Part shown: piece by piece, positions 12,575 through 18,242 of the stretch | Layout: each line of letters starts with the position of its first letter | How positions within the stretch are numbered: the stretch's first letter is position 1 | Assembly: GCA_944375905.1 (NCBI GenBank) | Contig: CALWAS010000013.1 | Location: 1 to 47,397, forward strand | Source: an uncultured Bacilli bacterium | GTDB taxonomy: Bacteria > Bacillota_I > Bacilli_A > RFN20 > CAG-826 | DNA: 47,397 bases | Direction of reading: 5' to 3' | The notes under the pieces: generated by a model | Databases searched by the model: none | Seen by the model: only the letters and a program-made list of their open reading frames with translations | Told to the model about the DNA's origin: nothing | Program-made: the position numbers and the translations under genes

Positions 12575-13303
12575 ATGCCGAAGGAAAAGAAAAAAGAAGG
12601 CAAGAAGGCCATAAGGAAAAAACTAAAAACAACATGGGATGAATTTCGCAAGTTCATTTCGAGGGGATCGATCATCGATCTAGCCGTTGGCGTAATCATT
12701 GGCGGCGCGTTCAACGCGATAGTCACCTCCCTTGTATCCATCTTGATGAGTATCTGCACATGGGGGGTGCCGGGAGGCATATCCGGCTTGGTGACCGTGC
12801 TCCCGGCCGCCAATTCCGCCCAAGCCGGGGTCCCCGGCATCGGCCAGAAATTCGCGGCCGACGGCGACACCATATCGGCAATGGTCGAGATATACGCCAA
12901 TGAATTCGGCCTAACTGGGGCAATGACCACTGCGCGAAGCGAGCTTCTTGGGAAATATACCCTCCATGGCGGCACTTACTACTACAACGGAAGCGCCCTC
13001 ATCGACTGGGGCAGTTTCATCAACGCCGTAATTTCGTTCTTGGTCATCGCCATAACCCTTTTCGTAATCGTGAAAGTGTTCAACTACCTCCAAAAGAAGA
13101 GAGAATTGATTGCCGAAAAAGCTCGCGAGGAGCATTACAAGAAGCATCCCGAAGACCGGCCTCTGCCTCCAAAACCCGAGGAGCCGAAGCCAACAGAGCT
13201 TGACGTTCTCATCGAAATAAGGGACCAACTTGCCAAAGCGAATGCCGGAGGAAACCCCGATGCCGTTAAGACGGATACCGTTGAAGGGAATCGACAACTT
13301 TAG
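12575..13303 (+). CDS. mscL: Large-conductance mechanosensitive channel
   Basis: 242-aa MscL, a pressure-release channel of the cytoplasmic membrane. The gate-lining first helix is clear (FRKFISRGSIIDLAVGVIIG, about 24-43, continuing GAFNAIVTSLV). A second helix lies about 148-170 (ISFLVIAITLFVIVKVFNYL). The C-terminal helical bundle ends in LDVLIEIRDQL. The protein is about 100 residues longer than the E. coli protein, through a basic N-terminal extension, an extracellular loop of about 80 residues (including GKYTLHGGTYYYNGSALIDW), and a Lys/Pro/Glu linker before the C-terminal helix. RBS GGGAGG. The 3' end overlaps the next gene by 44 nt. Confidence 0.93.
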   Translation: MPKEKKKEGKKAIRKKLKTTWDEFRKFISRGSIIDLAVGVIIGGAFNAIVTSLVSILMSICTWGVPGGISGLVTVLPAANSAQAGVPGIGQKFAADGDTISAMVEIYANEFGLTGAMTTARSELLGKYTLHGGTYYYNGSALIDWGSFINAVISFLVIAITLFVIVKVFNYLQKKRELIAEKAREEHYKKHPEDRPLPPKPEEPKPTELDVLIEIRDQLAKANAGGNPDAVKTDTVEGNRQL

Positions 13304-14351
13304 AGATCTTGGCGGGTATCCGTGCCGCTATGGCGAAACATCGTTTGGCGTCATTTACCGATCCAGCGAGATTTCGAATATAGATAAGTCGGATTTGCCG
13401 TTGATTTCGTCGCTTGGCATTAATTCGATAATCGATTTTAGGGATAGCCGGTCTAGGGAGGAAAGACCAGATCAAGTATCCGCCTTTCCGTCCGCCAAGC
13501 ACTATGTCCTAGAAGTGAACGGAGGCGGTCGCATTGCGAAAGACGAGGAAGACATGTTCGCTTCCTATTTCGAGATGATCGAAGAAAGAGAAAGCGCGTC
13601 CCATATCTTAAAGGCGATCATCGAGTGCAAAAAGCCGATGCTAATGCATTGCAGCGCGGGAAAGGATCGAACCGGCGTCTTCGCTTCCTTGCTTCTTTTG
13701 GCAAACGGCGTGGATCCTCTCGACGTCAATGCCGATTATCTTCTCTCCCTCCCGCTATTGAAGCACACAAGGGACATTACTTTAAAAAGACACCCTGATT
13801 TTCCGAGGGCCGTCCTTTATCCATCTTGCGACTTCCTTCCCGAATTCATTGAACGGTTTATGAAAAGATACGGGAGCGTCGAAGGCTATTTCCACTCGAT
13901 TGGTCTTAGCCGGATTGATTACCGCACTTTCTCGAATTTGCTTGGAATCCAGGAAAAGAGCTTCGGTGCGGCCTTGTTCAAAAACGGATGCCCGTTGCTA
14001 GAAAAGATGGGGCTTGGACACATATCAATCCCAAAGGGACATGCTGAGGCATTCGATAAAAGCGAACGGGATACGATAGAACGGGAAATAGAAGAAGAGC
14101 TTTCCCTCTCTCCTGACGACTACGACCTATTCGACGGCGAAAGATACGCCATTACCTTTTCCCCAAAGGAAGGGCATGTCAAGCGCGTCGAGTTCGGCTA
14201 CGGGATCGTGAAAAACGATAGTTCCTTGAAGGTCGATGGCATCGAAGTCGAGGATGCTTACTACCTGCCGTTTGAAAAAGCCATGGAAGAAATCACCTAC
14301 GACAGCGATCGCCGCGTCGTGAAATGGGCTTACTCCAAGTTAAAGCCCTAG
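13260..14351 (+). CDS. Tyrosine phosphatase-Nudix fusion protein
   Basis: 363-aa two-domain protein. Residues 1-225 form a PTP/dual-specificity phosphatase of the IphP/YwqE-unrelated tyrosine phosphatase_3 type: NFRDLGGY near the start and active-site HCSAGKDRTG (Cys131, Arg137). Residues about 230-363 look like a Nudix domain: GHISIPKGHAE followed by EREIEEELSLS. This box has one extra residue and Asp where the first Glu is expected, so catalysis by the Nudix part is uncertain. I chose the ATG at 13260 because GGAGG at 13247-13251 lies 8 nt upstream. Earlier TTG/ATG codons (13230, 13242) lack this. The start lies inside mscL. Confidence 0.85.
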   Translation: MPLRRIPLKGIDNFRDLGGYPCRYGETSFGVIYRSSEISNIDKSDLPLISSLGINSIIDFRDSRSREERPDQVSAFPSAKHYVLEVNGGGRIAKDEEDMFASYFEMIEERESASHILKAIIECKKPMLMHCSAGKDRTGVFASLLLLANGVDPLDVNADYLLSLPLLKHTRDITLKRHPDFPRAVLYPSCDFLPEFIERFMKRYGSVEGYFHSIGLSRIDYRTFSNLLGIQEKSFGAALFKNGCPLLEKMGLGHISIPKGHAEAFDKSERDTIEREIEEELSLSPDDYDLFDGERYAITFSPKEGHVKRVEFGYGIVKNDSSLKVDGIEVEDAYYLPFEKAMEEITYDSDRRVVKWAYSKLKP

Positions 14352-15218
14352 CTTCTTTTTGATGAAAGAAGCATACGCGGCGGCAACATTAACGCCGGTT
14401 GTTTTCTCAATCCCGTCCAAGAAGGCATTAGAGTTGACTTCGCAAAGGATAGGTTCCTTGTCTTTGCCGACCAAAATGTCGATTCCGGCATAGTCGAGAC
14501 CCATGATTTTGGCTGCCTTCTCAGCCAGGTACTTGTAGCCGTCAGGAATCTCGACAGCCTCGGCTTTGCCGCCTTGGGCTAAGTTGCTGCGAAAGTCGGA
14601 TTCGTTGTGTCTTTTCATCCCGGCAACGAATTTGCCTCCAACGACAATGAGTCGGAAGTCGGTTCCGGATGAAGAAGCAATGAATTCCTGATAAAGGTGG
14701 GCCTTTTTTGTATTCTCGGCCTCGAAACGTTCCAAATCCGATCTATTTGAAATCAGCGCGACTTCCTTTCCAAGCGAGCCGAAAGAGCATTTCCCAACCA
14801 TCGGGTATGAGAGCTCCTTTTCAACGAGATTCAAGAAGCCAGCGGAAGAAGTTCCGGCATAATTAAGCGGAGCTCCAATCGTTTTTGGCATATTTATTCC
14901 ATGCCCTGCCAAGGTAAGGTACGTGAGCATCTTGTCATCGCTCAGCCTTATTGCTTCGGCCGAATTGAATAGACGATAGCCTTGTTTCTCCAACGCCTTC
15001 GACAGATAAGCGTCTTTATCGAGAAAGAGAATGAAAGTAAAAAGGGATGGAAGAATTCCTATGGAACCATCTCTTCTTATAAGAGAAAGGAAGTCGGTTG
15101 CTCTGACGAGGGAAAGGCCGATGTTATCCTTTTCCAATTCCTCCTTCATTCTTTCATAGAAGTGTCGGGGACCTTGGAGAACTGAGTATCCGTTGATAAT
15201 CGCTAGTGCTTTTGCCAT
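14340..15218 (-). CDS. ATP-grasp ligase, RimK-like
   Basis: 292-aa ATP-grasp protein of the RimK family, which joins an amino acid such as glutamate to a carboxylate acceptor using ATP. Visible features are the N-terminal AIINGYSV, the central ATP-binding segment VEKELSYPMVGKCSFGSLGKEV, the adenine-binding LYQEFIASSSGTDFRLIVVGG, and the metal-binding CEVNSNAFLDGIEKTTGVN. The exact substrate cannot be predicted. The start at 15218 gives the family N-terminus; the open frame extends 132 codons further upstream without homology. TATAAT at 15226-15231 (minus) lies 7 nt before the ATG with no Shine-Dalgarno. Its 3' end overlaps the convergent phosphatase gene by 12 nt. Confidence 0.88.
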   Translation of the reverse strand: MAKALAIINGYSVLQGPRHFYERMKEELEKDNIGLSLVRATDFLSLIRRDGSIGILPSLFTFILFLDKDAYLSKALEKQGYRLFNSAEAIRLSDDKMLTYLTLAGHGINMPKTIGAPLNYAGTSSAGFLNLVEKELSYPMVGKCSFGSLGKEVALISNRSDLERFEAENTKKAHLYQEFIASSSGTDFRLIVVGGKFVAGMKRHNESDFRSNLAQGGKAEAVEIPDGYKYLAEKAAKIMGLDYAGIDILVGKDKEPILCEVNSNAFLDGIEKTTGVNVAAAYASFIKKKLGL

Positions 15219-15255
15219 GGCCGTAATTATAAATTTTGCGAAGCACATGGGTATC

Positions 15256-15284
15256 GTCACATAAAAGGCAAAAAATGGTAAAAT
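15256..15284 (+). promoter_or_regulatory. Promoter of nadE, start site predicted at or near the ATG
   Basis: -35 GTCACA (15256-15261), 17-nt spacer, -10 TAAAAT (15279-15284). Six nt separate the -10 box from the ATG at 15291. The divergent ligase gene begins 72 nt away, so both promoters share this short region. Confidence 0.6.
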
Positions 15285-15290
15285 ATTGTC

Positions 15291-17405
15291 ATGAAAAAGA
15301 CAAAGCCGATAACTGAACTGAGAGATACGGGAAAATTGGAAGAAGACCTCTCCCTTAACAATGGAACGCTTGCTATTACGAAAAACGGAAAGGTCCGTTT
15401 TCATGTCCTTTCGCCAGAAGCCTATGAGGAATTTCAGAACAAGGACCAAACGAGGGGCTTTGAAGAAAGGATAGAGCCGCTTCCTTCGGGCGGCGGTAAA
15501 AGCGATTGTCTCGGCTTTGTTCGTATGGCGGCAGCCACTCCTTTCGTAAACTTGGGAGCTCCGGAAAAAAACGCTGAGAATATAGTCAACGAAATTAGAA
15601 AGGCACACGAGCAAGGCGTTTCCGTCTTAGCCCTTCCAGAACTTTGCCTGACCGGTTATACGTGTGGCGACCTTTTCCTTGATGACGAGCTTCTTCACTC
15701 GTGCGACATTGCCATAGCGAAGATACTAGACGAGACGCGGGAGCTTCCGATTCTATTCGTTTTCGGCGCTCCGTTTCGGCCTGTTTCCCGTCTTTATAAC
15801 TGCGGCTTTGTGTGCTTGAAAGGGAAGATACTGGGAATCGTCCCGAAAGCCCATCTTCCTAACTATTCCGAATTCTACGAAGAGAGGCATTTTGCTATCG
15901 CCCCCGAAAACAATGTTTTGGTTTCCTATCTAGGACAAGAGACTACATTCGGGCGAAAGCAGGTCTTCGTCGATTCGTCTTATCCGCGATTGAAGATCGG
16001 GGTCGAGCTCTGCGAGGACCTTTGGGTCCCTTCATCCCCTTCTTCCATCCTTGCCTTGCATGGTGCATCCGTCATTCTCAATCTTTCTTCCTCGAACGAG
16101 ATCGTTGGGAAGGCCGATTACAGAAGAAGGCTTGTTTCCATGGCATCGGCCAAGGAAGCAGCTGCTTATGTCTATGCCGATTCTGGCGATGGCGAAAGCA
16201 CTTCCGATTTGGTTTTTGCCGGGCACAACATTATTGCTGAAAACGGAAGAATCATCGCTGAAAGCCGTCTATTTTCCATGAAATCGGCCGTTGCAGACAT
16301 CGATTTGGAACTTCTCTCGGCCGAGAGAAAAAGAATGAATTCCTTCGTACCTACGGGAGAGGAATTTCATTATGTCCCATTTGATCTTGAGCTTCGGCTC
16401 CCTTCGAATCTTCTTAGGAAATATGGCCAGTCGCCGTTCATTCCCGAGGGCGAGATGGATTTCGAGAGAGTCAATGCGATTCTCGACATGCAGGCGGAGG
16501 GTTTGAAGAACCGGCTTAGGGCCATACATTGCACAAAAGCCGTAATTGGTTTGTCGGGAGGGTTAGACTCAACGCTTGCCCTCCTTGTTGCCCATCGGGC
16601 ATTCAAACTGGCCGGGCTCGATCCTAAAGGGCTTTTGGCTATCACCCTACCTTGTTTTGGAACGAGTAGCCGGACCCATGACAACGCTGTCAAACTCGCC
16701 AAGTCGCTTGGCGTTTCGTTTAGGGAAATCAACATTGCCCGCAGCGTGGAATCCCATCTTAAGGACATCGGGCACGGATCTAGCTTGAATGTGGCTTTCG
16801 AAAACGCCCAAGCTCGCGAAAGGACGCAGGTGCTCATGGACATTGCAAACGATATCGGGGCAATCATGGTAGGCACCGGGGATCTTTCCGAGCTTTGTCT
16901 TGGCTGGTGTACCTACAATGGGGATCACATGTCAATGTATGGCGTCAATGCATCAATACCGAAAACCCTAGTACGTTACCTCGTAAAGGGCTATTCCATG
17001 ATGCACAAAGAATGCTCAGAGGCGCTCGACGACATTCTAGACACGCCTATTTCGCCCGAATTGCTCCCAACAGACAGCAATGGACAGATTGCCCAAAAGA
17101 CGGAGGACAAAATCGGGCCTTACGATCTCCACGATTTCTTCATTTTCTACTATCTCCGATACCGTTTCCGCCCGGCAAAGCTTTATCTCATTGCCTGCCT
17201 GGCCTTCGAAGGGCGCTTCGACAAAGCCACGATCAAGAAATGGCTTGTCGCTTTCTTCCGAAGGTATTTCGCGAACCAATTCAAACGCAACTGCCTTCCA
17301 GACGGAGCGAAGGTGGGGACGGTGGCGATCTCCCCACGTGGCGATTTGAGACTTCCTAGCGACGTCGATGCCGATTCTTATTTAAGAGAAGCGGAAAGTC
17401 TATAG
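15291..17405 (+). CDS. nadE: Glutamine-dependent NAD+ synthetase with N-terminal Phd/YefM-like domain
   Basis: 704-aa enzyme that amidates deamido-NAD to NAD+ using glutamine. Residues about 75-345 are the nitrilase-type glutaminase with the Glu117-Lys186-Cys241 triad (LPELCLTGY, VPKAHLPNY, GVELCEDLW). Residues about 395-690 are the synthetase with the ATP pyrophosphatase loop LSGGLDS (422-427). The first 50 residues are not part of NadE: ITELRDTGKLEEDL, AITKNGKVRFHVL and SPEAYEEF match the Phd/YefM antitoxin pattern. A 20-residue linker joins them. There is no Shine-Dalgarno. No toxin gene is adjacent; a GtrA-like gene follows 33 nt downstream. Confidence 0.95.
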   Translation: MKKTKPITELRDTGKLEEDLSLNNGTLAITKNGKVRFHVLSPEAYEEFQNKDQTRGFEERIEPLPSGGGKSDCLGFVRMAAATPFVNLGAPEKNAENIVNEIRKAHEQGVSVLALPELCLTGYTCGDLFLDDELLHSCDIAIAKILDETRELPILFVFGAPFRPVSRLYNCGFVCLKGKILGIVPKAHLPNYSEFYEERHFAIAPENNVLVSYLGQETTFGRKQVFVDSSYPRLKIGVELCEDLWVPSSPSSILALHGASVILNLSSSNEIVGKADYRRRLVSMASAKEAAAYVYADSGDGESTSDLVFAGHNIIAENGRIIAESRLFSMKSAVADIDLELLSAERKRMNSFVPTGEEFHYVPFDLELRLPSNLLRKYGQSPFIPEGEMDFERVNAILDMQAEGLKNRLRAIHCTKAVIGLSGGLDSTLALLVAHRAFKLAGLDPKGLLAITLPCFGTSSRTHDNAVKLAKSLGVSFREINIARSVESHLKDIGHGSSLNVAFENAQARERTQVLMDIANDIGAIMVGTGDLSELCLGWCTYNGDHMSMYGVNASIPKTLVRYLVKGYSMMHKECSEALDDILDTPISPELLPTDSNGQIAQKTEDKIGPYDLHDFFIFYYLRYRFRPAKLYLIACLAFEGRFDKATIKKWLVAFFRRYFANQFKRNCLPDGAKVGTVAISPRGDLRLPSDVDADSYLREAESL

Positions 17406-17438
17406 GTAACTCCGGTCCGAAATGCTACCATAGGCACC

Positions 17439-18242
17439 ATGAAAGACTCAGCTATCGTTGCCGAAACTTCGAAGGCCGCCAAAAAGGAGGCCAACCGGAA
17501 AAAGATATCCCGCGAACTTATCCGTTTTCTTATAACCGGAATCGTTTGCACGGTCATTGACTTTGCGATTTCCTATGTCGTCGTCCTTCTTTTGTCCACC
17601 AATCTTTCAACGATGGGCGATTGGGGCGGCTATCTCAGCTTCGCCATATCGGTGACTTGCGGATTCGTCATCTCGTGCCTCGTTAATTTCCTCCTATCGA
17701 GATTCTTTGTCTTCAAGAACGTCGACAAGAACATCGATACTGGTAAGGCGAGCGTCTTCTGGATTTATTTCTTCCTCGCTCTTGGCGGATGGCTTATCGG
17801 CCTCGGCGTCCAAGAGGCGGGGGCCTATCTCTGCAACTATCTCTGGAGCTTAAACATCAGCTTGGACATTTCGAAAGTAAGTTGGCTCGATTTGTTCAAC
17901 GAGGGCGGGCTGGCATTCTGGGCCTTCGTCGTAATCTTCGTAATCAAGACCTGCGTGACGCTCATCTACAATTACCTGACGAGGAAGCTCATTATCTTCA
18001 AGGCGCCCAAATCAGAGGACGACCCACTCGTCGCCGTGGCCTCGTCTTTCGAGGAAGCCAGGCCCCTTGAAAACCCGGACGACAAGCCCTGCACGAAAGA
18101 ATCGCTTCAGAAAATCGTCCACGAGGAACTTCTTTCCTACTACGGGAAGGGTCAGCTCATCATCAGCGAAGACGAAGCGCGGTGGATCATCGAGGACGAG
18201 CTCGACCGTTATTGGAAGAGCCATCCTTCCCGAAACCAATAG
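17439..18242 (+). CDS. GtrA-like family membrane protein
   Basis: 267-aa membrane protein with four predicted helices. LIRFLITGIVCTVIDFAIS, NFLLSRFFVFKN and YNYLTRKLIIFKAP are typical of the GtrA/DPMS family, whose members are associated with polyprenyl-linked sugar transfer or flipping for cell-surface polysaccharides. The protein is longer than the usual 120-150 aa: it has an inserted segment between helices and a charged C-terminal tail of about 75 residues. A weak -10-like TACCAT (17426-17431) lies 7 nt before the ATG and there is no strong RBS. The next gene starts directly after its stop codon. Confidence 0.85.
   Translation: MKDSAIVAETSKAAKKEANRKKISRELIRFLITGIVCTVIDFAISYVVVLLLSTNLSTMGDWGGYLSFAISVTCGFVISCLVNFLLSRFFVFKNVDKNIDTGKASVFWIYFFLALGGWLIGLGVQEAGAYLCNYLWSLNISLDISKVSWLDLFNEGGLAFWAFVVIFVIKTCVTLIYNYLTRKLIIFKAPKSEDDPLVAVASSFEEARPLENPDDKPCTKESLQKIVHEELLSYYGKGQLIISEDEARWIIEDELDRYWKSHPSRNQ

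Follow-up and report, generated by a model that had tools for sequence, protein, structure and literature searches.

An antitoxin-type DNA-binding domain fused to NAD+ synthetase, with a probable autoregulatory operator, in an order of Bacilli

Introduction

A number of metabolic enzymes, referred to as 'trigger enzymes', carry a DNA-binding domain of their own and act on the genes of their own pathway, good examples being PutA, BirA and NadR, the last of which combines an HTH domain with NMN adenylyltransferase and kinase domains. To our knowledge, no trigger enzyme has a Phd/YefM domain or is built on NadE. The transcriptional control of NAD genes by NiaR and NrtR is exerted by separate regulators that have other folds. 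A different form of autoregulation is found in toxin-antitoxin (TA) systems of the Phd/YefM type, where in E. coli YefM-YoeB and Enterococcus Axe-Txe the antitoxin represses its own operon through its N-terminal domain, with the toxin as co-repressor, at paired palindromes lying over the -10 region (PMC7730913, PMC4803016). The YefM operator has two TGTACA palindromes, 12 bp apart, overlying the promoter (PMC7730913), and residues R10 and R31 are essential for DNA binding (PMC4803016).

Here, we describe a gene from an uncultured member of the Bacilli (assembly GCA_944375905.1) in which these two themes appear to meet. The locus lies in a 47,397-nt stretch of contig CALWAS010000013.1, hereafter the window, and encodes an NAD+ synthetase with a Phd/YefM domain at its N-terminus. 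Like PutA, BirA and NadR, this Phd-NadE joins a catalytic and a DNA-binding domain in one polypeptide, the latter being identified by homology, and it would, like NiaR and NrtR, place NAD genes under transcriptional control. Enzymes that carry a DNA-binding domain are thus already known; a Phd/YefM domain together with its operator on NAD synthetase is, as far as our search goes, new, since we found no description of NadE or NAD synthetase fused to Phd or an antitoxin in the open-licence literature searched.

The Phd-NadE fusion

The nadE open reading frame (ORF), at 15291-17405 on the forward strand, begins with ATG and encodes 704 amino acids in a single uninterrupted frame. A sequence-only reading of the window had proposed that a Phd/YefM domain and a complete NadE share this frame, and both are there: residues 3-51 (15297-15443, + strand) form a Phd/YefM-like DNA-binding and dimerisation domain, residues 52-73 (15444-15509, +) a non-conserved linker that is predicted to be disordered (pLDDT <50 at residues 52-67), and residues 74-702 (15510-17396, +) a complete glutamine-dependent NAD+ synthetase. 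In the full-length structural model, residues 52-67 are one of three low-confidence stretches, the other two falling within the synthetase half.

The window sequence matches PF02604 (PhdYefM) over residues 3-51 with 19-20 bits (E 1.2e-3 to 5e-4), which falls below the cut-off of 29.8 bits, so that the single sequence is inconclusive and the identification rests on family-level evidence. At that level, the expected Phd/YefM match was recovered for 32/33 homologous N-termini, with some fused members exceeding the cut-off (G004, G045, G078, G081, G083 and G107), and a profile of the fused N-terminal family aligned by hhalign to stand-alone antitoxins of the Bacilli with 99.9% probability and an E-value of 1.4e-31. 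When the family profile was searched against the PDB, almost all matches were Phd/YefM/RelB antitoxins. The AF2 prediction for the domain reproduces the Phd topology, with elements in the order beta-alpha-alpha-beta-beta-alpha (mean pLDDT 78). Each of the 25 best Foldseek matches to this model is a Phd/YefM/RelB-type antitoxin, with probabilities of up to 0.98 and E-values that are weak, the domain being small. Chance resemblance over 50 residues is ruled out by the profile, fold and operator evidence taken at the family level, and the assignment of residues 3-51 to Phd/YefM is confirmed by these sequence and model comparisons.

The remainder of the protein is a complete synthetase of the PRK02628 type (NF002730, 775 bits over residues 74-702), with CN_hydrolase at residues 90-344 and NAD_synthase at 402-567, both above the Pfam cut-off. 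The glutaminase triad (E117, K186, C241) and the synthetase P-loop SGGLDS (residues 422-427) are present, and residues 75-699 align end to end with the glutamine-dependent NadE of Mycobacterium tuberculosis (PDB 3dla; E 1.8e-141), which has the same catalytic residues and differs in lacking the Phd domain. In two fused proteins the glutaminase cysteine is replaced, by Ser in L022 and by Ala in L113, and the Phd domain persists, which indicates that its retention is independent of glutamine hydrolysis. Four further loci of the same genus (L121-L124, in genomes G011, G032, G017 and G025) encode a shorter NadE with intact synthetase motifs and neither Phd domain nor operator; their glutaminase domain is degenerate, with PELxLTGY replaced by, for example, PADAVLGD and with no VPK or ELCEDLW, and these enzymes are probably ammonia-dependent. 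Another relative without the Phd domain (L130, in G057) has what looks like a NadD-NadE fusion, both enzymes being encoded in a single open frame of 856 aa, and one Phd-NadE frame (G176:C4:51188-53284) contains a single in-frame TAG, for which sequencing error, a pseudogene and recoding are all candidates.

Homologues with the same N-terminus occur in the majority of the genus's genomes and, within a single order, in four families (70 genomes with N-termini read). Among the best 80 of 519 matches in a GTDB-wide scan, the fusion occurs in only two, both records from this genus, and NadE outside the lineage begins without a Phd domain. A survey of 395 genomes of the class found, outside the order, that each listed Phd domain sits in a short stand-alone frame; together the two surveys rule out a wide spread beyond the order. 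A phylogeny of the Phd domain, built from 52 columns, lacks resolution and neither supports nor contradicts a single origin.

A predicted operator at fused nadE promoters

The nadE start is separated by 72 bp (15219-15290, the size given in the sequence-only reading) from a divergent RimK-like ATP-grasp gene of 292 aa (14340-15218, - strand), and a divergent gene resembling ATP-grasp was matched by sequence pattern at 21 related loci. Elsewhere in the window, within 12575-14351, one ORF joins a tyrosine phosphatase (PF13350) to a NUDIX domain (PF00293) and overlaps mscL; the match of MscL to PF01741 is split into two stretches, so the protein seems to carry an insertion.

De novo motif discovery in the promoters of fused nadE genes returned a palindrome, CATAATTATG-N-YATAATTATG-NCA, whose half-sites lie 11 bp apart and overlap the -10 box; half-sites of the form TGNCA or TGNTA recur every 11 bp across this box. 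A pair of TGNYA half-sites with this spacing is found upstream of 28/33 fused nadE genes vs 0/79 unfused ones. The median score in fused promoters is 20.4 bits, against maxima of 7.3 bits upstream of unfused nadE in the same order (n=22), 6.9 elsewhere (n=73) and 8.7 upstream of 186 other ORFs, a control set from which nadE and the divergent ATP-grasp starts were removed, the latter scoring up to 20.5 because their intergenic region is common with nadE. As the motif contains the -10 box, its conservation is partly that of the promoter. To guard against circularity, the motif was also trained anew, using solely other genera and families, and this held-out model ranked the nadE promoter first among ~10,000 positions in 21/27 loci, including that of the window genome; in one clade (L021-L026) the site is shifted and weaker.

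In the window, the motif match lies at 15268-15291 (+), the top match in the 47 kb with the full model. Its core, TGGTAAAATATTGTCAT (15276-15292, +), consists of the half-sites TGGTA (15276-15280) and TGTCA (15287-15291), 11 bp apart, and covers both the extended -10 box and the beginning of the start codon. Nowhere else in the 1.22-Mb genome is there an exact match to TGNYANAATNNTGNCAT. Because the left of its three half-sites is degenerate, the window copy is weaker than those of most relatives; scored with the held-out model it reaches a modest 5.4 bits and comes second in the 47 kb. A wider regulon was considered and rejected: of 41 genomes, 5 have the three-half-site pattern at a fused nadE promoter, other matches are scattered, and the core is unique in its own genome.

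The extended -10 box, TGG-TAAAAT (15276-15284, +), lies within the operator and ends 6 nt before the nadE ATG, so the nadE mRNA is probably leaderless. Extended -10 or TATAAT-like boxes ending 6-7 nt before an ATG are seen at 15276-15293, 15216-15232 and 17424-17441 of the window, several promoters thus pointing to leaderless mRNAs in the genus.

Domain and operator in stand-alone antitoxins

The same DNA is found upstream of antitoxin genes. Across 279 genomes of the order, an exact 21-bp pattern gave 13 matches: nine at fused nadE, two immediately before stand-alone Phd genes, one before an unrelated ORF and one intragenic. The motif trained on nadE promoters also scores 14.7-28.5 bits upstream of 12 stand-alone antitoxin genes, which were found by protein similarity and lie mostly outside the order. 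One stand-alone antitoxin gene with the operator (L222) overlaps a ParE toxin gene (PF05016). The occurrence of one motif at stand-alone Phd genes and at nadE is best read as marking the operator of this Phd subfamily, with nadE holding both the domain and its site. Stand-alone antitoxins of the Bacilli, such as L222 with its ParE, L248 and L250, thus share with Phd-NadE the N-terminal domain and the upstream operator DNA; they differ in having an antitoxin tail of ~35 residues and, where checked (L222), a TA operon, whereas Phd-NadE has NadE in place of the tail and no toxin gene after it. In L224 (G048), near position 1119, an unrelated ORF is preceded by a copy of the operator motif, possibly a chance match or a borrowed site.

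The residues that contact DNA in YefM also have counterparts. R11 (15321-15323, +), which by its position would correspond to YefM R10, is invariant in 57/57 fused domains, and K31 of the ITKNG turn (15381-15383, +), aligned with the Arg of the YefM ITR turn (R31), is Lys in 56/57 and Arg in 1/57; both rank among the most conserved positions of the fused domain. As in YefM-YoeB and Axe-Txe, paired palindromes lie over the -10 region, and the TGTACA core of those systems is present in 14/35 fused promoters from relatives outside the genus. The nadE sites differ in their 11-bp spacing, as opposed to 12 bp, and in a core that is usually TGNYA or TGNCA, and Phd-NadE has no toxin to serve as co-repressor; autorepression through the N-terminal domain is proposed for it by homology.

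A model of autoregulation and its alternatives

We hold, with good though not complete confidence, that nadE captured the DNA-binding half of an antitoxin together with its operator as an autoregulatory module, and the sequence evidence indicates that NadE very probably controls its own gene. A phd/yefM-type antitoxin gene would have given its 5' half, promoter-operator included, to an ancestral nadE. The Phd/YefM domains of NadE subunits would then dimerise, within or between NadE oligomers, and the dimers would bind the palindromic half-sites overlapping the nadE -10 box and start, repressing the gene once NadE is sufficient; repression, as opposed to activation, is suggested by the behaviour of the family. 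Such a NadE would hold down its own synthesis as a trigger enzyme, and would stand where the antitoxin had its toxin-binding tail. It might also act on the divergent ATP-grasp gene. The operator motif is positive sequence evidence for the earlier proposal that NadE regulates the 72-bp region. A further idea is that the ligand or oligomeric state of NadE (NaAD/ATP vs NAD) sets the geometry of the Phd dimer and hence its grip on the paired operator, which would let the enzyme repress its own gene directly according to NAD status, in the role that a toxin has in conditional cooperativity; this we offer tentatively and consider somewhat doubtful.

All of this presupposes that the N-terminus is translated and no longer serves a toxin. 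Unfused NadE begins at a position that matches residue 70-79, so translation of the fused gene might be supposed to start there. We give almost no credence to this: codons 2-50 are under strong purifying selection (pN/pS 0-0.21, with values up to 1.0 in the linker), the residue-1 ATG is immediately preceded by Shine-Dalgarno sites in many relatives, or else lies behind an extended -10 box, and the downstream ATG at 15525-15530 has no preceding ribosome-binding site and lies inside the NadE core. A downstream start, which the sequence-only reading had named as one of two observations that would undo its proposal, is thereby ruled out. Phd domains neutralise ParE/RelE, YoeB or Doc toxins, and the genome encodes two large Fic-domain ORFs, on another contig than Phd-NadE, so the fusion could in principle be the antitoxin of an unlinked toxin and couple NAD synthesis to it, as the earlier reading had entertained. 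That link finds no support, and we regard it as scarcely credible, as the C-terminal toxin-binding segment is gone, replaced by NadE, just as that reading had described, and by a freely evolving linker; no protein of the genome matches PF05016 (ParE/RelE) or PF06769 (YoeB), ruling out an unlinked partner of either kind, and a ParE toxin is undetectable in 22/37 genomes of the same genus. The neighbour downstream is a GtrA-like gene, in line with the earlier statement that no toxin gene is adjacent, and the only Phd domain detected in the genome is the one in NadE. Given the missing tail, the lack of another detectable Phd domain and the absence of ParE/RelE and YoeB matches, Phd-NadE is, on sequence grounds, not a TA system, even if it would act like the antitoxin half of one.

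The two remaining alternatives accept the fusion and deny that the site acts as an operator. In one, the Phd domain serves NadE only in oligomerisation or turnover, and the operator-like DNA is an unused relic of the antitoxin's 5' end; Phd domains do dimerise, antitoxins are protease-sensitive (PMC10135005) and the linker is predicted to be disordered. We find this unlikely, because the site is kept over four families despite widely diverged flanks, goes with the fusion and is missing from unfused nadE, and R11 and K31 remain among the most conserved positions of the domain; that operator and DNA-contact residues are both kept is unexpected of a relic. In the other, less likely still, the conserved DNA is merely the core promoter of nadE, TGNTANAAT being recognisable as an extended -10 element that is included in the motif. 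The informative positions reach beyond the -10 box, to a CA 11 bp upstream and a TGNCA 11 bp downstream, which occur at none of the 186 other ORFs or unfused nadE genes and do occur before Phd antitoxin genes. The autoregulatory reading, in which fused Phd domains act on this operator, is the one we retain.

Implications

The domain-operator pair is short and amenable to simple reporter tests. The NiaR 3H domain was undetected in 37 genomes of the genus, and Phd-NadE suggests a route by which NAD synthesis may be controlled in these small-genome Bacilli. An antitoxin DNA-binding domain and its cognate operator would have moved from a TA system to the regulation of an essential housekeeping enzyme and been kept across an order, making Phd-NadE a clean case for how toxin-antitoxin parts become domesticated.
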